14,918 nt of DNA from Irineochytrium annulatum (Eukaryota; Chytridiomycota; Chytridiomycetes; Chytridiales; Chytridiaceae). The DNA lies in assembly GCA_027600665.1 (NCBI GenBank), contig JADGJL010000727.1, forward strand, positions 1 through 14,918, read 5' to 3'. The stretch's first letter is position 1, and each line of letters begins with the position of its first letter. Of this stretch, positions 1,194 to 14,446 are shown piece by piece. Both the position numbers and the translations under genes were made by a program. The notes beneath the pieces were generated by a model. The model saw only the letters and a list, made by a program, of their open reading frames with translations. It made no database searches and had not been told where the DNA came from.

Positions 1194-4100
1194 TTAAGCC
1201 CACCGGCTCCGCCGCACCGCGGGGGCGGGGGCGCTCACCGTCAATGCGCTCGCACCAACAACATACTGATAAACGCTCAGCGTGCTCCCCGCCCCACAAA
1301 TCCCGTTCCCATCCACCTTGCACGCCATGCTACACTTGCTTGCGGGAGCGTCGACAACCGTCGCATTCCTCCAGGTCGTGTCGCACCAGCACTCGGACCC
1401 GTATTCGAGGCCGCAGAACGTCATGGGTGGGGACGCGGCCCGGCCCTTGGCGAGGCAGGCGGCGGTCGTGTGGCCGGAGCCGTAGAGCTTGCTGAAGGTA
1501 CGCGGGTTGCCCGGGTCGGAGTAGCAGCCTAGGTACGACCAGCCGGATGTTGGGGTGGCGATTGAGGACGTTGAGGTGGTGGTAGAGGTCGTCGAGGTGG
1601 AAATTGACGTGGCGTCCGAGGTCGTTGCAGTAGAGCTCGCGGTCAAACTCGTCGCGTCGGAGGAGGTCGCCGCCGCAGCGGACGTGGTGGAGGAACTGGT
1701 CGGCACCCCAATGGCGCCCGCCCGATACTGATAAGCGCTCAGCCGGTTCCCATTCCCACAAATTCCTGTCGCGCCGGGCGCATTGCACTTGGTGCTGCAG
1801 TCTGAGTCCGGCGCCTGCACGCTGGTTGTGTTTTTGAACTGGGTGTCGCACCAGCACTCGGACCCGTACTCGAGCCCGCAGAGCGACTGGCCGGCCGAGG
1901 CGCCCTTAGCGAGACACGCCGCAATCGTGTAGCCGGAGCCCCACCGCTGGCCGAACGGGTGCGGGTTGCCGCGGTCGTAGAGGCAGCCGATGGCCACCCA
2001 GTTGGAGGGGACAGAAACGGCGGTTGTTGTGGTGGTTGCTGCGGTCGTTGTAGTGGAGGTGGAAGTCGGCGCGGAAGTAGTGGAAGGCGGCGTAGCGGAT
2101 GATATCGAGGATGTTGCAGGCGTTGTGGTGGTCGAGGTTACGGGTCCAATGATCGACTGCGCGATGTACAGCGTGAGCCTATTCCCGCTCCCGCAGATCT
2201 CGGCCTTGTTGCCGTTGCACGGATCATTGCACTGCGCGAGCGGCACGTCGACGCTCGTCGTGTTCAGGAAGCTGTTCCCGCACCAGCATTCGCCGCCATA
2301 CTCCAGCCCAGCGTAGCTGTACGCCGAGCACGCCGACAGGCAGTCCTCGACCGTTCGCTTCGGGTTCTGCATCTGCTTCGAAAGCGTCCGGCCGGCCCCG
2401 TTAGCAGCGTCCAAGACGCACCCGTAGGAGACCCAGCCCGCCACCTGCGGGAAAGTCTGCCTCGCGACGAAGTTGATCTCGATTGCTCCGGTGCTGGCCG
2501 GGTCGTTCGTGTTAAGCTCCCATGGCGCCGTGAAGACCTGGGGCGGCGAGCCGACGACGTAAGGGTTCACGGTCGGGCTGGTGAACGTCACGGGGACAGT
2601 GACGGTTTGACCGGGAGCGATAAGCTCCTGCTCGAAGATCGCGTTGTAAAGGGCCTGAATAGCGCCGGCGTAGGGCGGCTTGCACTTAGTGATGAGGAGG
2701 TTGGACTTGCCGACATTCGAGACAAGGACATTGAGGGTCACGTTCTCGCCCATTGGTTTAGAGCCGAAGTCGACGTTCAGAGAGGAGGTGTAGGTGCCGT
2801 CGAGCTGTTGGGTATCGAGCTTCAGGGCGGGCGGACCCGCGGCGGACCCCGTGAGAAGGAGAGAGGCGGAGCCTCCATTGGAGGTGAAGGCGACGTTGTC
2901 GCTGTAGACGCCGTCGGCGGTCGGGGTAAACTTAACGGAGAGCGTTAAAGTGCTGCCGGAGGGGAGGGTGTAGGGCAACTTCGGGGCATTCAAGACGGAG
3001 AAGGGGCCGGTATTAGCGGGGTAGTCGATGCTGGACACGACAAGGTCCTGGGACCCATCGTTGAGGACGATAGCGGTTGCCGTGTTCGAGGTCAAGCCAG
3101 TGACGACACCACCAAAATCAATCGAGTTGGGCTGAAGGACGAGGTTGGCGCCGTTCGCGAGGGCCGCGCCGTGAAGGGATGCGAGGGCGTAAAGCGAGAT
3201 GCCGTTCGCGGTGACGGTAAGGTTCAAGACGGCGTTGTAGGATCCCGGCGCGGTCGGGTTGAACGTGAGGGAGATGGGGAAGGGAGCCTTCGCCTGGAGC
3301 TGAATGGGGAAGTTGATGGGGGTAGTGAGGGTCCACGAAGGGTCGGAGATTTTGACGCCAGTGACCGTGACGGCATTGGCGCCAACAACGAAGTTGACGG
3401 GCTGGACGGACGTGTTAAAGCCAACGACAACCTTGCCGAAGTCGACGGACTGGGCCGTTAGCGGGGTTGTGAGGGGAGAGCCGTACTTAATCATTCGCCC
3501 GTCCGACGTAACGATGTAGACGCTGCCCTGGCTGAAGGCCGGGCGGGTGAACTTGTTGAACGCATAAATCCCGGCAACGGAAGCCTAATGCACAAGTTAG
3601 TACAATGAAAAAGGCAAAGGCGACGGCTACGTAACCCACCGAAAAAAGCGGTGCCAGGTCCCCATTCTGCGGCACGGCCTTAAACGCGTAAATCGACGAG
3701 CTGTAATCCATATACCACACAATGGCCGACCCGGGTGCCCCGTTCATCGACGTGACAATCGGCGAACCCGAAAACTGCCTCGCATTGTTCTTGGCCTGGC
3801 CCGCGAATGAGAATCCGACCGTATCCCCGCTGGACGAGAACCGGTACGCCTGAAGCGGGCTCCCGGCGGGTATGGCATACATGAACCCGCCGTCCTCGAC
3901 TCCCGGGTACATCGCCACAGATCCGAACATAGAGCCCGGCAGCGTGACCGTCGCGAGGACGCCGTCCCCGCCCTGTGCGCCTTGAGCGAATCCGCCGAGA
4001 TTGTTGGCGTCCATCACGTACACCAAGCCCGTCTTGCCAACGGAGGCGCAGAGCTTCGGATGCGAGGGCGTACTGAAGACCGTGCCCTGCGGGAAGAGCG

Positions 4101-5445
4101 TCACACCGCCCGACCCAAAGTCCCTATCCCCGCCGTTCAGCTGCTGATAGTTGTACGGCATGAAGAAGTCCTGCGCATGCATCTTCCCCGACGCGTCTAT
4201 GCCAAAGTTGATGGTTGACTGCCCGAGCTGCCCCGGTGGCGAGTTGCCGGCCGTAGCGACCTTGGTGGGTGAGTCGTCCCCGTTGCCCGTGACGACGAAG
4301 AGTCGGTTCGAGGAATCCGAGGCCACGCCGCCACCAGACATCCAGATCCCGGACCCGCCGTTGTTGATGTTGGTCGTGGCGCCGCTATTGGTCACAACAG
4401 CCGAAATAAGGGTTCCTGTGCTTGCCTCAAAGGACATGACCCATCCCGTGAAGTTGAACAGGTCGCTATTTTTTTTGCGAATGAGTACTGCACTGCGAAT
4501 GCGGCGAATCCAAAAACAATCTCACCAGTGCGAACCAAACGCAGCATACACGACCCCGTTCTGGAACATGACGGCGGGCCGCTGCAAGACAATCCCGCCC
4601 TGGAATACGCGCCGCTTGTCGTTGTCCGCCACAATACCCTCCAGATCCACCGGGTACCCATTCATCTCCTGCAAACCATCCACACGCACGCCATGGAAGT
4701 GATACCGCCCATTCAGCGGCGCCCCACCGGGAAACATCCCTGGACCCGTCCCCGCCGCGTAAGTCTTTGAGAAAAAGTACGCGACACCGGTTGCGGGGTC
4801 AATTGCGGGCGTGCCGATGACGCCGACATTCGCATTGTTGATGTCCCCGCAGTTGACGTCCGTGCCGACGTTAAAGGGCACGTCCACGTTGGCGGCGTTG
4901 AGGACGGCGCCAGTGCCGGCGTCGAGGGTGTAGATATTGTTGTTGGTGGTGGCGACGAAGACGGCCTGCTTGCCGGTGGAGGGGAGGGTGTAGACGAGGG
5001 GTGAGGCGTAGCAATGGCCGGGCGCGCTGTAGTGATAAGCTAAATAACGCTATTCACGGAGATAATTGAACTCTACTACTTACACCCCGTTGATGGTTGG
5101 GAGGGATGCCTGATACAGCTGCCCGAAGGCGTTGGAGCCGACGATGTTCGGGTCCAGGTTGGCATTGGGCCTGCGAGTCGGAGAGCAGAGTAAGCTCCAT
5201 AGCCACATCATCACGCCCCATCACGAGATCGGGTCGTCGCGTCCACGTCGTCGCCAGGTCCACGACGTCGTCATACTCAAAGAGAGCACTCACACATATC
5301 CATGCCGCAAGTTTCCTCCGGTTGCCGTCAAGAAGTCGTCCGCCACGACCGACCGTGGGGCCAAGACGGTGGTCAGGGCCGCCGCGATAGCGAAGGCTCC
5401 CGCGGCCATCCTCCGCCTCTCGGGTGTAGCTGCTGCTCTAAACAT
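1194..5445 (-). CDS. Secreted PQQ-like propeller / ASH / triple-WSC protein
   Basis: Five exons give 1318 residues: 5445-5294, 5170-5084, 5026-4526, 4465-3640, 3584-1194. Introns are 123, 57, 60 and 55 nt; donors include GTAAGT and GTGAGT, and the last intron has a perfect TACTAAC at 3602-3596. Residues 1-35 look like a signal peptide (RRR, then an Ala-rich core, cleavage near VVA/DD); Met13 is an alternative start. Residues about 36-550 resemble bacterial-type PQQ-like beta-propellers, with blade phrases such as NIYTLDAGTG, FGSHCDLFNFTGW and IWMSGGG. Three Ig-like modules of the ASPM/SPD-2/Hydin type start at the phrases VDFG, SIDFG and VDFG near residues 569, 676 and 793. WSC domains follow at about 905-1000, 1050-1145 and 1202-1300, each with the Cys-rich core around LEYG.ECWC, joined by Thr/Ser-rich linkers likely to be O-glycosylated. 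WSC domains are known as carbohydrate-binding or wall-sensor modules. No C-terminal membrane helix is seen, so I infer secretion into or beyond the wall. Enzyme activity cannot be judged. Confidence 0.88.
1378..1881 (-). repeat. Near-identical 39-bp direct repeat inside WSC domains 2 and 3
   Basis: Positions 1378-1416 and 1843-1881 match at 37 of 39 bases. They encode the same core of the second and third WSC domains (the CGLEYGSECWCDT segment). The two domains also share the phrase AACLAKG and the same layout, whereas the first WSC domain differs more. This points to a recent internal duplication of one WSC unit with its Ser/Thr linker, or to gene conversion between them. Confidence 0.8.
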
Positions 5446-5906: not shown

Positions 5907-8900
5907 TTACGCCTTAAATTGAAGCAAATACTTCAACCTGACCCTATTCGCATCGTAAACAATGTACTGCAACATAGCCGTCAGTGGGTACATCGCGGCA
6001 AAGCAAACAACATACCTCGTTGTAGTTCAAGTACCCGGAAATTTCTCCCGCCGACTGAAGCGCGCCGCAAGGGACCCCACATCCGTCCGGCCCAAGCACG
6101 AGCCCCGAACGGTCCGGCCTCATTCTCCCAACCCCCTTCGTCGAGCTCGTACCCCTCAGCGGCTCCTCCATGTACCAGCTAGTCTCCAGGCACGAAGACT
6201 CGCCGAGGGCGACCTCGCACAGGAACATGAACCGATCGCTCCCCGAGCTCCAGCCGCAGTACGGCAGCGACTTGCTAAATGAATCGGCCGTATATATTCC
6301 CTTGCCGAACATCAAGCCCGTGCTAGGGGCCTCGGGCGGGGCGATTTTCAGGCCGCGCGCCAGGATACCGGCGACGTTGAGCAGCCGCGTGCCGTGCCAG
6401 AGGAGCAGATTGCTGGGCCGCAGGCCCTCGTTGTCCTCAACGATGGTCTTTCCGGCGCCGACAAAGTCCTTAAACGTTTCGACCTCCTCCAAACGAGTAA
6501 CGGCAAAGATATTCACAATTTCAGGTGTCTGCGTCGCCGTCCGCGTTACGTATCGTTCGATCAGGTTGTACTCTGGCGTATGCTTCGGGATAACGCTGAT
6601 TTTGGCGCCGAGATTTTGGTATATGGCGTCAATCCTTGCTCGGCCATCTGAATAACGACATTTAGAATATTTCGCTATGGAATCGAATCCTACTTAGGTC
6701 AAGGAGGTCCTCATGAATGTAATTCATTGACTCGTTGATGTCAGACCTGAGAGTTGCAAAATGTAAGTGGTCATTTTCAAAGACCGTTTATACTGACATT
6801 ACATCCAACATGTCCCTTCTATCCTTAATCGCGTCCGTTGTATTTATCATCGGAGGCGTCGACGATCCGTAATCATGAGGTATCAGCTCGTAGAAGTGGT
6901 TCGTGAGTTCATCTTCAGCGGTTAAGCATTAGCGCAGATCTGTCTTCGTTACCAATCAAGCCGTCAAGTTCCTTGCGCTCATCTTCGCACTCTTTAACCT
7001 TTTGACCCCTGTACGAGTTAATAAATGTCAAGCGAGTGACGTGCTCGGCAAGTGTGGATAGAATTGTATAGCCCTCGTGTATCTGCGTGTGACTAAATTG
7101 GCCGACCGGAAGTCGCTTTAAGTCAAGATTCAGCCCTGACAGGTCGCGGCCCATCAGCTCTTTGTCAGTGGCCTTCTCCAATAGCTCCTGAATTGGCTTC
7201 GCAAGAGCTGATTTCGCTTTAATGGCCGGTCTGCGAAGGGTTAGAAGTAGTTTGACAACAAGCACGCACTTCTCTTTCGTGGGGTAATATCTCAGTTGAA
7301 ACGAGTATTTCTTGGTATCCCGCTTGAACTCATATCGCTCGGACCAACTGTTCCGAGTTTTTTCTTTAAACTTCGCTATGAACGCGGCCTTTGCGGTACT
7401 CAAATCTGGTCGAACACGGGTTAGCGCTGGGTGAAAGGAAAAAGAAAAATAGCGCGCCATGAAGGAAACACAAATATCTTATACCATAGAATTCTTCTCT
7501 CTTGTCGCCTTGCCTGCGAAAAAGAACCTGTAAAGATTTTGTATGGGTGATAGGCACATTACCCGTAATACATCTCGCCCATCCTTCCCCATCTGCGTTA
7601 AAGGCTGCGTCAGAGGAGACAATTACAGTCAAGTGACAAGCAATGGGTAATAGGGACCTTGTGTACACCACATACGGGGCGACTGACGTAATGCTGCGGA
7701 TAAAGTTGATCCGCTCCGTCAGTGAGTTCCGCTCCTTCGAATTTTGATTCAAGACATCCGGGTTTTCAAGGAGTTGGATGACGTAGAACTTATTATGTCC
7801 GTGCGACCCATGCTTTATTTCAACGAGCATGAGAAAAGCGTCGTAAATGTCGTTCCTCTTTTGTTCTTCATCAAATTCGACCAGGACGCGATACGCCGAG
7901 TTCCCAAAACGGGGGTCGACGGGAATATCAAGATCCGTCGCATGTTTGCGCTGACGTTCCGCCTCTGCATTCGCAAGCTTCTTCCGCGCTTCCTTCATTC
8001 GCTTCTCGAGATCCCTCTTCTCCTGAAGCGCCTTCGCCATCCCTTCCATTGACACGCCGTTTGCAAGCCTTTGATAATTCGAGCGAAGCTCAACCCCTTT
8101 CTTAACGAGTGCATCAAAAGCGGCATGTTTGCCCGCCTGCACGCTTTTGTTAACTCAGATCAAGTGATTCTTTACTTACGGGAATGGTGCGCTTGACGTC
8201 CTGAAGCACTGACTCGAACCCCTCACCGCAAAACGCAACCCAGCTCACCACTGAACGCCCCTCTTTATCGGCGGATAGCGGGTCTGCACCTGCGTCCAAC
8301 AAGGGCTTTAATTTCCCATATGATGGCATGATAACCCCGATGCTCTCCTCGACCAATACCACGTAGTAAAGCGGCGTTTTCCCTTCTGCGTCCCTAAGGT
8401 CGACGAGCTTCTTGACCGCGTCCGCGCCAACGAGACCTTTCAACCAAGCGAGCGCCCACGCCGATCTTCGTTGGAACCCGAAAATTGCAAGATGATGTAG
8501 CGGAGTCCGCTTGGAGATCGTGTCCCCAACAGCCATGAGGTCGACAATTCGTGATCGGTCTTCATGTGACAACAACGACGTAAGCTTGGATCTTAGCCCC
8601 GTGTTTCCGCCTATAATGGCGGCATGGAGCACATTGATGCCGCCTACGGTTCCAAACCCCTGTTTCGTTAATTCATCGTCCCATTGCACGCCTTCAGAAA
8701 GTTCGCTCAGCATTCCGACCGCGCTGAAAGTCTTTTCCTCCTTGGCAGCATCAAGAACTAGATCCATCAATGTTTCTTCTATAGGCGTTGTCTTGGACCG
8801 ATCTACTGGAAGCTCATCATCGTCGGCCAGCGGCTTTCTGCGATAGCAATAAAGCAGTAGATGCAGCAATTGAGAGTAGATTTTGTAGTGGCCGCCGCCG

Positions 8901-11900
8901 TTTGAATTCCCGTTTAGTCCGTTCGCTTTTCCAATCCCAAAAACTGCCCGCTCTTTAATTAATCTGATTGCGATACTTGAGGCATTTTCCGTAATAGCAT
9001 CCTACGACCGTAAACGTTAGAAGAGGGAGTGCCGGTCTACAGATTACCTTAAAAGCCCGAGCGGTATCCAAAGTAGGATCTGCAAGCATGATCTCCACGA
9101 TGTTTTGAAACTTCTCCTTCCGCTTTAAACAGAACCGGAAAGCCGACATCTTAGCCGTGGGATCGTCTGTCAAGCACTTCTTGGACGTAGAAGAGGACGA
9201 GGAGGAGGAGGAGGCGGAGGATGACGATGACGGTGAGGCTGAGGCTGTTGGCTGGACGCTGCAGTTAACATCAGCGCCTTTCCGCAGCAGGGCGTACGCC
9301 GTCGCAAAATTAGAGGCCATGAGAGCGTAGCTCAAAGGCGTGTTTCCCGCCTTCGTTTGGACGTTGATGTCGTCAAGCTTCAACAACTCCTCAACGCTCT
9401 TCCCAGCTTGTGGTAGAGAGCAAGCAAGATGTAGAGGCAACGCGCCGTCGTTGTCCGGTGCTCGGAGAGGTATGACACTTGAATCACTTAATCCTTTTCG
9501 TATGGCGGCCACCTGTTTCAGAAGATACCACGGCTCGATTTCCCCTGCATGGAGATAGAGGAGGTGAACGACTGTGCGTCCTTCCGAATTTGCGGCTGAT
9601 TATTGATGTTAGGCACAAATGTTGAATAGTTACTCACTACCTTTGAAGTTCACACTGGCGCACGAGGCGAAGGCGTTTAGGGCCTCCTCTCTCTTTTTGC
9701 CTGACAGCAACATCGGGACATAGTGCAAGGGACATGAGCCGACATATTCCGCAGTATGCCCTTTCACCGGCCCCTTCGGCGTATTCACGTTTTCCCCACG
9801 TTTCACCATCACGTCCAGCAAAAGCTCAAGCATTTCAACCTGCCCTGCGCGTACGCACAAATGCAAGATTGTCTCGCCTGACTCCTTATCCAAACACTCT
9901 TCACTTGACCAGTAGTCTCTCTTGCTAAGGTTTACCGGGTAAGTTGCTGAATAGTTCAGATGGCTCGAGTAGGCCTCGAAAAGAGCCTTCGCATACACAT
10001 ATTTGTCATGAAGAATAGCCTCTTGAAATGGCGTCTTATGCGTGGTCGGGTGCGGGCGATCGATAAGACACGGTTCCTTTTTAGTCATATACTTCAGTAG
10101 GGTTGCAAGTAGCGGAACGGCCGCTTCCCCTTCGGATTTCAGCAGCACCTCCAGCGCTGTGTGTTTCTTTGCGTCCAGTATGTTAACGTCAACGCCGTTC
10201 GATAGCAGGTACTCTAGCATTTTAGCGGTCGCGGTGTCCACATTGCTTAAATACTGATGCAAAACGCCTCCAAATTGGACCTCCGATGCACTCATGACGT
10301 GAATGCCACCGACGTAGTCGTAAATCTGCACTGCTTAGCGGCCGGAAGTGCGTAACGAAAAAATACCTTGTTAAAAGCAGCTATTACTTCATCCTCCGTT
10401 AAGAACTGCATCTTCTTCATCTCGCAGTACTGGTGCTTAGGGCCACCTTCGCCAATAGCCACCCCCTTCGAGTCCTTTCCAGCTTTGCCGAGAATGCAGT
10501 GCGTGCTTCCGGTCGCTTCGACGCGAAATTCTCCTCCACAAAATTCAACCATCCTCTTCAGCGCCGATGCTCTGGATTCGAAAACGCCCGTCGTAGTGAT
10601 TTTGGAGCCCACGTATGGGAGGAAGACGTCCCCCTCCGCCTCCCCGTCCACCTCCATACGATCCGGTTTCTTTTCAACTGCGTCATTAAGAGTCGCGTTC
10701 AGGTCAACCCCGTGCTCGACGCACAACCGAACGCATTCAAAATGGTTGTTAAGAACGGCCTTAATAAATATCGCGGAGCCGTCGTCCGATCGCGAGTTTA
10801 CGCTGATGTTCCTGGCAAGAAGGTACCGCACCACCCGCACGAACCCATTCGAAAGGGCTTCCGCCATCATCTTCGCGCCTGCGACGTCGTCGGGTACGTA
10901 CGCCGGAACGTGGCGCGGTCGGAAGCGCGCCGGAGACATAGGGTCCGCGTTGTTGACGGGCTCCATGAGGGTGCGGAGAATCGGGACCGAGTTGGCCTGC
11001 ACGGCGGCCAGAGCAAGGTCATCCATGAAGTCCACTGTGGAGAACGGGTCCGCATGGTGATCCTCTAACTTGAAATCCTCAACGTCGAGATTGTCATGTT
11101 TGCCGGTCGGCTCTGGTACGGTGGCGAGCACGGCGAGGAACATCGGGAAGTCCTTATTGGCAACGGCCTCCGTTATCGGGCCCTCTAATGCGCCTTCGCT
11201 CTTCAGGTGCTCGCTCTCCTCATTTGCAATGAAAAAGAAGTCGACATTGCGAAGCTTAAAATTATTCGTCAGCAAGATTTAAAAGAACACGGAAGCAACT
11301 CACGTCGATGACAGAGCTAAAAAACTCTGCTGAGGTCTCGTAGGCTACAAGGGGAGCCACCCTAGCCAACTTGGCACTTAACAAACATGTGGCGTTCTTT
11401 ATGCAGTGTGATTGCACCGCCGCCACTATCGCATTTTGCAGCTCGTCGTTGATCATTCTTTCAGGGAGCACGCCTTCAATCTTCGTTAGCAAAAGCTCGA
11501 GGACCGGCGAAGCCCCATTTGAAGCGACGTGGATGCCCTGCATTTCAGTTGCCTTCTCGTCGGCCAAATTCCAAGCTTTCCCGCCCATAGCTGCATAATA
11601 GAAGAGAGGCCGGTCGTTAGTGTCTGTTAACGTCAGATCTCCGCCCATCGAAACGAGATGCTTGAATATCTCAAGGTTCCCCCTCAAGGCCGCGCAATGC
11701 ATCGGCGTCAAGTAGATGCCTAGCGAGCCCGCGTTGATCGTCTCCGCATTCAACTCCTCCGTGACCTCGTCAACAGAGTTAGCCGTTAAGCACTGCCAGT
11801 GAAGTTTCGTGAACGGGCCGTCGTTGGGAAGGTGATCCGAGGCCTGGTCGCGACCGAGCATATCTGTCCTCGCACGCACAAGGGCCGGTACGGATGAAGC

Positions 11901-13323
11901 GCCATTGGGGCGCTTTTCAGATGTCTTCATCTCGATCATTTGCTTGATAGCTAACACGAAGTTCGAAGGCTCGTAATATGACAAGCTCGCTATAGCAAAA
12001 GTCTGGAGCTCTTTAATCGTCGGTGGATTTAATTTAAGCAGATGTTGGAAGAATTTCGGGGTCAATGTCGACGTCGCGTCCGCCAGCCATTCAACCCGCT
12101 TTCCGGCGCGGGCGGAGACCACGGCGTTCAAAAGCTCGGCATCTGAACGATTGATTGCGATGCTTGACGCAGTCGTCAAGAACTCAACCGTCACGTCCTT
12201 AAATTCTGCAGAAGTAAAACTTAGAAAAAATGATGATCTCAAAACCATAACACTTATAAAATCGCCGCTCACCTGTGAAAGCAGCGAGTTTTTGAAAAGT
12301 AGTGACGTCCCCACGATGACAGCATTGCTCCAGCATTCGCTTATGAGATTCTGCACTACATTTGTAGACTTCTGGTTCCTCTTCCCAACCATCGAGAAAT
12401 TTCTGCAGCGCAATCCGCCTCTCTCGGAGTTCTTTCTTGCTCGTCTCCTTCTCCTTCTGCTCCGTTTTCCACTCCTCCAACATTTCAGTTGGAACCATCG
12501 ACGCCTCGACCCATTTCAGCCTAGCGACCTTCGACGCGCGTTGACCCCTCCCGGCGCGCCCGTCGACTTCAATCTTCACGTTATACTCGATGTCGCCGGA
12601 GTCCTTGACGCGCTGCTTGAGCACTTCCACGATAGACATGCCGTTTTCTTCGAAGGCGTCTATCAAGTCCCGGTCGACGTCCTCCTCCTTGACCCATTTG
12701 CCGTCAATCATGTACTCCGTCTTCCCCCGCAACGTCTTGCAGTCCGTGATCGCGCCAGCGTCGCTCCCCGCGGACTTCCCCGGCGCCGCTCGACCGGATG
12801 CACCGCTCTCCCCCTTCGTAGCCTTCGATGCCACCCTCCGAGACGACCGCCTCCCTGCGGTGGCCTCCTCCGTCACCTTCTCGTCCTCGTCTTCACCGTC
12901 CACAACCATGTCGTTATCTTCACTTTCATCTTCCACTTTGGCAGCCTTACGCGGCGTTGCTTCGGCCTCATCCTTGGTCGATGGCCTGCCACGCTTTCTG
13001 GCGCTCTTCGCCGGGGCCGGCGTTCCGTCAGCGTCATCGTCAGCGGCCGCCGCCTTCGCCTTCCCGCGAGACGAGGTTGCCGCGGCTTTCGATTTCGCCG
13101 TGGACGCCGGGGTCCTTCCCTTCGCTGCAGACGCCGCGGCCTTGCCCTTCGCCGGCGTCTTCCTCGTTGATTTCCGCGTAGTGGCCTTCGTCTCCTCCTC
13201 GTTCTCCTCCTCGTCCTTCTCCTCCCCGCCGTCATCGTCATCCAGCACCACCATGACGTCGTCATCCTCCTCGGGTTCCGCCTTTTTCTTCGCGGCCGAC
13301 TTCGCTGCGCGCTTCGGGGGCAT
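5907..13323 (-). CDS. Ankyrin-BRCT-WGR poly(ADP-ribose) polymerase
   Basis: Fourteen exons in one frame give 2255 residues: 13323-12273, 12205-11304, 11254-10367, 10325-9641, 9595-9048, 9001-8180, 8136-7658, 7592-7563, 7513-7485, 7426-6953, 6912-6798, 6746-6694, 6647-6016, 5966-5907. The N-terminus is Lys/Ala-rich with acidic runs (about 16-46, 131-152) and an AT-hook-like KRGRP (110-114), suggesting a nuclear protein. Ankyrin repeats begin near 480 (LTPMHCAALRG at 516). A BRCT-like domain lies at about 861-947 (VGSKITTTG, FCGGEF, FLTEDEVIAAF). More ankyrin repeats run from about 950 to 1620, interrupted by a Ser run. A charged coiled-coil-like stretch leads to WGR (about 1765-1875), the PARP helical domain (about 1884-2030; LPVGQFS) and the ART domain. 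His2110 (LLWHGTR), Tyr2144 (GKGIYTAD) and Glu2236 (NYNEY) form the H-Y-E triad; the 34 and 126 residue spacings equal those I recall for human PARP1 (H862, Y896, E988). By family it adds poly(ADP-ribose) to proteins using NAD+; WGR suggests activation by DNA ends, ankyrins suggest protein targets. No zinc finger or SAM domain was seen. Confidence 0.9.
7231..7269 (-). other. Possible extra in-frame 39-nt intron
   Basis: Between the WGR and helical domains, a segment starting GTGCGT and ending TTCTAACCCTTCGCAG is exactly 39 nt and can be removed without changing frame. As coding sequence it would give CVLVVKLLLTLRR, which looks like translated pyrimidine-rich intron. Without it the text reads YYPTKEKPAIKAKSALAKPI, closer to the linker usual in PARPs. 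If it is spliced, the protein is 2242 residues. Other introns of this gene are as short as 40-43 nt. Confidence 0.55.
7485..7592 (-). other. Two micro-exons coding the WGR core
   Basis: Exon 8 (7592-7563, 30 nt) and exon 9 (7513-7485, 29 nt) are separated by a 49-nt intron. Exon 8 reads, with one base borrowed from each side, R-WGRMGEMYYG, the motif that names the WGR domain. Exon 9 reads QGDKREEFY. Using the earlier AG at 7529-7528 instead of the one at 7515-7514 would break the frame into exon 10, so the downstream acceptor was chosen. The donor of the intron before exon 8 is GTCCCT, which is weak, but the WGR motif only appears if it is used. Confidence 0.75.
9184..9246 (-). repeat. Serine-codon microsatellite within the ankyrin region
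   Basis: The plus strand shows a run of GAG/GAC-type triplets; on the coding strand these are Ser codons giving SPSSSSSASSSSSSSSTS at about residues 1293-1310 of the PARP. It sits just after an ankyrin repeat ending GADVN and before a Lys-containing segment. Triplet repeats like this vary in length between strains without changing frame, and the run is probably a flexible linker that splits the ankyrin array. Confidence 0.75.
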
Positions 13324-13562: not shown

Positions 13563-14446
13563 ATGCCGCGAGTCGGTACGGCAGCTTCCTTCATTGGTCG
13601 TTCTTCTGCTCTGCTCCCAAGGTTTCTCTGATGGCTTCTGACCGGCACGGCTTTCTCTTCCAGCCGTCGTGCTCTTCGACAACTTCGCGTCGCTCGATGT
13701 CTTCGGCCCACTCCAAATCCTCACGCATCGCCTGGCGAAGCCGGAGTTCTCGATCCTGAACGTGTCGAGGGATGGGAAACCTGTCCTGTGCTCGACGACG
13801 CAGCACGTCACCGTGCACTGCTCGTTCGCGGCAGTCCTTGAGGGCAAGGAGAAGGTCGACACCTTGTTCGTGCCCGGCGGGATGGGTACGAGATCTCTTT
13901 GTGATGACACAGAATTTTTGGACTCCTTGAAGGCGATGAGCGAGAAGGTTCAGGAAGTGTGGTCCGTTTGGTGGGTGTTCGCGAGTACTTGTCTCTTCGC
14001 TCTTCCAAGCTAACCAAAGATTGCGTAGCACCGGCTCCGCGTTACTGGCTAAAGCTGGCCTCCTCGACGGCATCAAAGCGACGGCGAATAAAGCATCATA
14101 CGTTTGGAACACGTCCCAGGGCCCCAAAGTCCAATGGGTCCACAAAGCGCGATGGGTGCATGACAAGAAGGGCGGGAAGGAGTACTGGACGTCTTCGGGT
14201 GTCGCGGCGGGCATGGACATGGCGCACGCTATCGCCACTGCCAGGCTCGGCGCGGCCACGGCCAAGACCATCGTGGATCAGATCGAGTACGAGCCCCATA
14301 CGGACTCGTCCTGGGACCCGTTCTCGGAGACCTTCAAGCTGGCCGAGCAGCCAAGCCCTGGGAAGCGCGCGCGTGAGCCTTCACCGGCCAAGTCGCCGAC
14401 GAAGGGTGAGAACGGGAAGCCGGCTCAGCGACCGCGGGAGACTTGA
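13563..14446 (+). CDS. DJ-1/PfpI-family (class I GATase-like) protein
   Basis: Three exons, 13563-13575, 13664-13970 and 14029-14446, give 245 residues. The first coding exon is only 13 nt but yields MPRVAVVLFDNFASLDVFGP, the usual start of this family; the donor is GTACGG. Intron 2 (58 nt, donor GTGGGT, branch-like GCTAAC) splits the nucleophile codon: TG from exon 2 plus C from exon 3 makes Cys107 in WSVCTGSALLAKAG. Other family marks are PGGMGTR (75-81), the ATANK segment, and WTSSGVAAGMD (160-170). The layout Asp16-Cys107-Thr108 resembles isonitrile hydratase-like members (remembered as Asp17, Cys101, Thr102). Members are variously hydratases, glyoxalases, deglycases or of unknown activity, so the reaction cannot be assigned. 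Residues about 211-245 are an extra tail with GKRAREPSPAKSPTK, which resembles a nuclear signal with Ser-Pro sites. It is divergent from the PARP gene. Confidence 0.88.

Follow-up and report, generated by a model that had tools for sequence, protein, structure and literature searches.

A predicted ankyrin-BRCT-WGR PARP gene in Irineochytrium annulatum

The stretch of DNA analysed here (hereafter the window) comprises the 14,918 nucleotides of contig JADGJL010000727.1 from the chytrid Irineochytrium annulatum (assembly GCA_027600665.1). Its minus strand carries a gene for a large poly(ADP-ribose) polymerase (PARP), in which two blocks of ankyrin repeats flank a predicted BRCT domain and are followed by WGR, a helical domain (HD, also PARP regulatory domain, PRD) and an ADP-ribosyltransferase (ART) catalytic domain. 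Joining of open reading frames (ORFs) and exons placed the start ATG at 13323 and the end of the stop codon at 5907, with a reading frame free of stops across 15 exons. The initial annotation had both ends of this gene exactly right, and its proposal of a single ankyrin-BRCT-WGR-helical-ART protein is borne out by Pfam on the joined pieces, a BRCT profile and collinearity with a protein of Rhizophlyctis rosea; its 14 exons and 2255 residues give way to 15 exons and 2235 amino acids (aa).

All 14 introns are GT-AG and 39-79 nt long. They include an additional intron of 39 nt at 7269-7231 (GTGCGT..CTAAC..GCAG), which keeps the frame, and a re-sited one at 6797-6747, which gives MLDVMSDINESM in the window protein, matching MLDVMSDVAEAM of R. 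rosea; an earlier siting of intron 12 (giving MLDSMNY) was abandoned, as the R. rosea comparison ruled against it. The WGR exon junctions were sited to yield YVVYTRWGRMGE, for which the R. rosea counterpart is YQVYTRWGRMGG. Two of the 14 introns, both in the WGR-HD region, have GTC 5' splice sites (7657-7593, GTCCCT; 6797-6747, GTCAGT), their sole support being the conserved protein that they restore. An earlier model of 2228 aa, without 7 residues near aa 1988, was used for the Pfam scan (in three pieces, E<=0.1), the PDB alignment, the relative searches, the R. rosea alignment, the BRCT profile search and hhalign. From N to C terminus, the protein runs from a charged tail through a chromo-like module, ankyrin block A, BRCT, ankyrin block B, a linker, WGR and HD to ART:

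5907..13323, minus strand: whole gene, 15 predicted exons, 2235 aa (joined translation; collinear with R. rosea P0003)
12763..13323, minus strand: low-complexity Ala/Lys/Glu/Asp-rich tail, aa 1-187 (translation, composition)
12634..12762, minus strand: predicted chromo-like module, aa 188-230
10631..12205, minus strand: ankyrin block A, aa 351-859, containing the intron 11303-11255
10367..10630, minus strand: predicted BRCT domain between the ankyrin blocks, aa 860-947
8113..10325, minus strand: ankyrin block B, aa 948-1640, with introns inside (Pfam Ank_2 1.1e-22)
7924..8112, minus strand: charged linker, aa 1641-1703 (sequence; 40% identity with R. rosea across the 65 residues aligned in aa 1641-1712)
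7221..7923, minus strand: WGR region, aa 1704-1860, four introns within, motif YVVYTRWGRMGE with W1793 (Pfam WGR 1.4e-11; 44% identity to R. rosea over aa 1713-1860)
6694..7211, minus strand: helical PARP regulatory domain (HD/PRD), aa 1864-2006, with introns inside (Pfam PARP_reg 3.3e-23)
5910..6646, minus strand: ART catalytic domain, aa 2007-2235 (Pfam PARP 5e-53; alignment to human PARP1)

The catalytic triad is intact, with H2090 at 6394-6396, Y2124 at 6292-6294 and E2216 at 6016-6018, the last being the final codon ahead of the last intron, at the end of the penultimate exon. WGR and PRD together with a PARP domain that carries the HYE triad place the protein in Clade 1 (the PARP1 group). 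The Pfam domain search that the initial annotation had called for matched PARP, PARP_reg, WGR and Ank (Ank_2 at 1.7e-14 and 1.1e-22), while BRCT stayed below the cut-off and was recovered by a profile of its relatives. Against PDB, the WGR-HD-ART part matched PARP1 (1.1e-65), PARP2 (3.9e-58), PARP3 (9.7e-31) and PARP4 (1e-11); the 50 distinct PDB sequences reached at E<=0.001 all belonged to PARP1, 2, 3 or 4, with no tankyrase among them. With no SAM domain found by Pfam in the three pieces, this agrees with the view taken at the outset that the protein is distinct from tankyrases.

A BRCT domain between the ankyrin blocks

The domain that sets the protein apart was located by a profile built from the BRCTs of R. 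rosea and a EukProt protein (P0026), which found it at aa 860-947 with E=1.4e-12 and ranked the window first among 122 sequences (of 124 searched) that had not gone into the profile (runner-up 1.7e-6). In this leave-one-out search the window stood far above the BRCTs of PARP1. The structure model follows a strand-helix-strand-strand-helix-strand-helix order, and PDB profile matches also support a BRCT, of the TopBP1/RFC1/PARP1 kind; ankyrin rows occupy nearly all 50 places in the PDB match list for exon 3. Profile, model topology and PDB matches thus all point to a BRCT, and a stretch in its second half is common to the window and the other carriers. The isolated stretch scored E=0.22 with Pfam BRCT, behind an unrelated Hirudin model at 0.016, both below the cut-off. 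A hidden BRCT in rotifer ankyrin-PARPs was considered and rejected: the weak profile matches around residues 780-835 were taken as chance because the stretch consists of ankyrin repeats (hhalign probability 2.5%).

Relatives and distribution

A C-terminal query (aa 1700-2228) against proteins of 0.55-1.75 times its length gave 143 matches, 120 of which were listed. Precomputed Pfam annotation assigned Ank_2 to 83 of the 120, and BRCT to just two of these 83 listed ankyrin-PARPs, namely R. rosea P0003 and EukProt P0026. Besides R. rosea, the early fungi with an ankyrin-WGR-PARP among the matches listed were Dinochytrium, Borealophlyctis, Zopfochytrium, Powellomyces, Cunninghamella, Halteromyces and Phycomyces nitens, while C. 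elegans PME-5 could not be recognised in the 120 entries listed out of 143. A second query with the ankyrin region (aa 480-1000), scored against just the 7995 candidates with the most words in common, was flooded with unrelated ankyrin proteins, did not have R. rosea among the three listed at E<=1e-8, and is uninformative on distribution. One match, P0001 of the oomycete Lagenidium giganteum, gave three consecutive alignments to WGR-HD-ART, reflecting either a protein with three PARP units or a fused gene model.

The R. rosea protein, annotated as "Poly [ADP-ribose] polymerase 2" (P0003, 2152 aa), shares the ankyrin-BRCT-ankyrin-WGR-PRD-PARP layout, collinear from around residue 192 to the catalytic domain, and aligns to window residues 192-2205 (2228-aa numbering) with 28% identity. 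By part, identity is 19% in the N-module, 29% in ankyrin A, 26% in BRCT, 26% in ankyrin B, 40% in the linker, 44% in WGR, 39% in HD and 51% in ART. Unlike the window, its annotated protein ends (...GRTGYLVEFD) ahead of the stretch with the catalytic Glu, perhaps through an annotation slip. P0026 (EukProt m.72817, 2222 aa) has the same layout with its BRCT at 768-851, but no chromo-like module was seen in it by eye and its ART is 42% identical.

Other known PARP types share parts of this layout. Members of Clade 1A/1-ank (Dictyostelium, Paramecium, C. elegans PME-5, animal "tankyrase-like" proteins, Mucorales, Zopfochytrium, Dinochytrium) also have ankyrin followed by WGR, PRD and PARP, but no BRCT is annotated in the listed members. 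A scan of four classical chytrid ankyrin-PARPs showed in each a C-terminal tail bearing a zf-CRD match below the cut-off, and PBZ in two of them, whereas the window has neither. Those PBZ matches lie at 2327-2351 in Borealophlyctis P0102 (1.6e-6, above the cut-off) and at 1620-1641 in Zopfochytrium P0107 (0.0026, below it), and contrast with a statement, in the part of PMC4245714 consulted, that PBZ is not findable in fungi. Fungal Clade 1E proteins (Colletotrichum, Mycothermus and kin) resemble the window in BRCT, WGR, PRD and PARP, with no ankyrin annotated. Human PARP1 shares the BRCT-WGR-HD-ART order and the catalytic triad but has zinc fingers and lacks ankyrin, whereas tankyrases (Clade 4) share ankyrin arrays and ART but have SAM and lack WGR and the helical domain.

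Two apparent lineages of ankyrin-PARPs in fungi

The tree comprised 58 rows, the window and 57 chosen from the 120 listed after thinning of rotifers, insects and metagenome copies; PME-5 was not included, and the root is a midpoint only. The 39 ankyrin rows came together (100/98) against 19 rows without ankyrin. The window lies on this ankyrin side, yet outside a classical group of 34 rows (100/99) that holds amoebae, a ciliate, animal "tankyrase-like" proteins, Mucorales and four chytrids. It pairs instead with Rhizophlyctis (100/99), within a five-row set that also includes P0006, P0007 and P0026 (94/91). The tree puts the window away from the Pezizomycotina PARPs of fungal Clade 1E, which lie across the deepest drawn split. 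A single clade of the window, Rhizophlyctis and seven other fungal ankyrin rows, a grouping chosen after the tree had been viewed, was rejected by the approximately unbiased (AU) test (p 0.0002). The window gene thus seems to fall in a small second ankyrin-PARP lineage apart from classical Clade 1A, and fungi would hold two such lineages rather than one.

The catalytic-domain tree proposed in the initial annotation was in this way run without PME-5 and left the window outside the classical group; its description as PME-5-like fits the layout, but not the grouping, as the animal PME-5-like proteins fall within the 34 rows. The alternative drawn at that stage, of an ancient form lost in most fungi or an independent fusion, was too strong given two fungal lineages, and the BRCT at the same place in the distant P0026 leans towards age over recent fusion.

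The strongest competitor, which we rate as unlikely though by no means negligible, is that chytrids and the lineage of P0026 each evolved the BRCT-ankyrin layout on their own. This would fit the pairing of P0026 with the BRCT-less P0007 (100/100), and forcing the three BRCT carriers into one clade costs 38 log units (p-AU 0.053), so that their union is neither rejected nor supported. Against it stand the identical position between ankyrin blocks, the stretch common to the second half of the BRCT, and the leave-one-out score that places the window far ahead of PARP1 BRCTs; moreover, P0007 is only 1238 aa long, and loss or truncation could therefore explain its missing BRCT. Less probable again is that the protein is an ordinary PME-5/Clade 1A ortholog to which the BRCT was added locally. 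Its gross layout of ankyrin, WGR, PRD and PARP is indeed identical to that of Clade 1A/1-ank, and all 39 ankyrin rows lie on one side of the 100/98 branch, but the 34 classical rows form a set without the window, union with the seven other fungal rows was rejected, and the BRCT recurs at the equivalent place in R. rosea and P0026.

A probable break-activated polymerase on an ankyrin scaffold

The domain order, intact triad, WGR motif and helical domain can be read directly from the sequence. In PARP1 and PARP2, WGR binds the break end and the helical domain, which then unfolds and opens ART. We consider it probable that the window encodes a Clade 1 enzyme with ankyrin blocks flanking a BRCT and a complete H-Y-E centre, acting as a DNA-break-activated poly-ADP-ribosyltransferase on an ankyrin scaffold, in a second lineage apart from classical Clade 1A. 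The window protein has the domains that this requires. Its WGR would dock on a break end and against the helical domain, whose unfolding would let NAD+ reach ART, as in PARP1/2. The ankyrin blocks may hold partners or substrates, and the enzyme would then ADP-ribosylate itself and the proteins held there. The BRCT would add a DNA or phospho-protein contact, the chromo-like module may touch chromatin or a partner, though it probably does not read methyl-lysine, and the chains would be removed by the PARG of the same assembly. The consulted part of PMC2964712 describes C. elegans PME5 as DNA-damage induced and chromatin-associated, which would fit the same use in a related lineage.

Several observations weigh against this interpretation. 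Pfam called no BRCT in the window protein (no match at E<=0.1 across the three pieces), and the ankyrin repeats are degenerate (a 14-repeat profile scored above 2 bits for 2 repeats in the window, 5 in R. rosea and 2 in P0026). There is an insert ahead of the WGR core, judged by eye, and the protein ends in ...LLQFKA, without the C-terminal tail of PARP1. Confidence is middling for the exon 3 model (mean pLDDT, the predicted local distance difference test, 68) and poor for the N-terminal one (56.8), and Foldseek gave no match at E<=0.001 for either. In the tree, the five-row set is not starred at 94/91 and two rows, P0018 and P0100, are flagged long. HPF1 was not found in the assembly by a search that had no working positive control, and its absence is not claimed.

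Tankyrase-like action, whereby ankyrin clusters capture peptide motifs and ART works without DNA, could account for the long ankyrin arrays ahead of ART, but we regard it as very improbable: WGR and the helical domain are present, unlike in tankyrases as described in the consulted part of PMC2964712, no SAM was called, and the nearest solved relatives are PARP1/2/3. Finally, that two neighbouring genes (ankyrin; WGR-PARP) were wrongly joined is scarcely credible, since one annotated R. rosea protein is collinear with nearly the whole model, with identity running part by part, the linker from block B to WGR included, and the joined frame has no stop; ankyrin through PARP is likely a single gene, and we infer one transcript from that collinearity.

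A predicted chromo-like module

Fold matches to the N-terminal model, itself weak, suggest the chromo-like module. Pfam Chromo was not matched in the window protein, and the aromatic cage residues for methyl-lysine were not seen by eye. An ankyrin-PARP of Powellomyces hirtus (P0115) starts with a Pfam chromodomain (residues 126-170, 6.3e-9), and chromo-type modules may for this reason occur in both fungal ankyrin-PARP lineages.

The PARP system of the assembly and neighbouring genes

The fragmented assembly (26.9 Mb, 1082 contigs) was searched in six frames and exon-wise. The PARP catalytic family PF00644 gave a single match, the window gene (2 candidates scored), a WGR-ART query from a classical chytrid hit the window contig only, and the WGR family matched just one exon of the window gene (E=0.109), because introns split the WGR domain. 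PARG (PF05028) was matched in pieces on contig C359 (best 2.2e-38, with a QEE motif), with a further match on C456 (8.8e-8). A search for zf-PARP found none; it had no working positive control, and absence is not claimed. The RPB2 assembled from contig C423 matches that of Irineochytrium annulatum (Chytridiales, Chytridiaceae) with 100% identity in the best local alignment, which spans 60% of the query. A stretch on contig C392, considered as fungal RPB2, was rejected as bacterial rpoB; this rpoB/rpoC stretch is bacterial sequence within the chytrid assembly.

Within the window, an ORF at 1194-3584 (minus strand) carries three WSC matches (1.1e-35) as well as Ig matches of the HYDIN/ASH type; the frames neighbouring it, at 3487-4521 and 4522-5049, gave no Pfam match. 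At 13642-14013 (plus strand), divergent from the PARP gene, lies a DJ-1/PfpI match (3.9e-8).

A variant of a known layout

Ankyrin-WGR-PRD-PARP proteins were catalogued across eukaryotes, fungi included, as Clade 1A by Citarelli et al. 2010 (PMC2964712), and Perina et al. 2014 (PMC4245714) placed Clade 1-ank in amoebae, PME-5 and Saprolegnia and suggested that ankyrin and PARP came together several times, in the consulted parts of both papers. The kind is thus already known, because Clade 1A and Clade 1-ank have been described. The initial annotation was right that this PARP type is unusual for fungi, but the layout is not new, with seven named early fungi besides R. rosea carrying it among the matches listed. 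The consulted parts of the two papers make no mention of a BRCT within an ankyrin-PARP, and among the titles listed in the literature searched, with most subscription papers outside its scope, none named a BRCT in an ankyrin-PARP or a PARP from these chytrids. The BRCT variant and the second lineage therefore appear new within that literature, and the window protein holds more interest than an ordinary Clade 1A member would, yet is a variant of a known layout.

We put forward, tentatively and at somewhat less than an even chance, that the protein represents a second ancient ankyrin-PARP lineage beside Clade 1A, marked by the inter-ankyrin BRCT, and that it is here the sole cellular PARP, joining chromatin contact (chromo-like module), damage contact (BRCT, WGR), an ankyrin scaffold and polymer synthesis. 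The division of fungal ankyrin-PARPs into two lineages would be patchy even within one family, with the BRCT type in Irineochytrium and the classical type in Zopfochytrium, and is relevant to the question of when ankyrin repeats were first combined with DNA-break sensing. With a single PARP of this kind and a PARG, a genome would offer a compact setting in which to ask what a break-activated PARP gains from an ankyrin scaffold.

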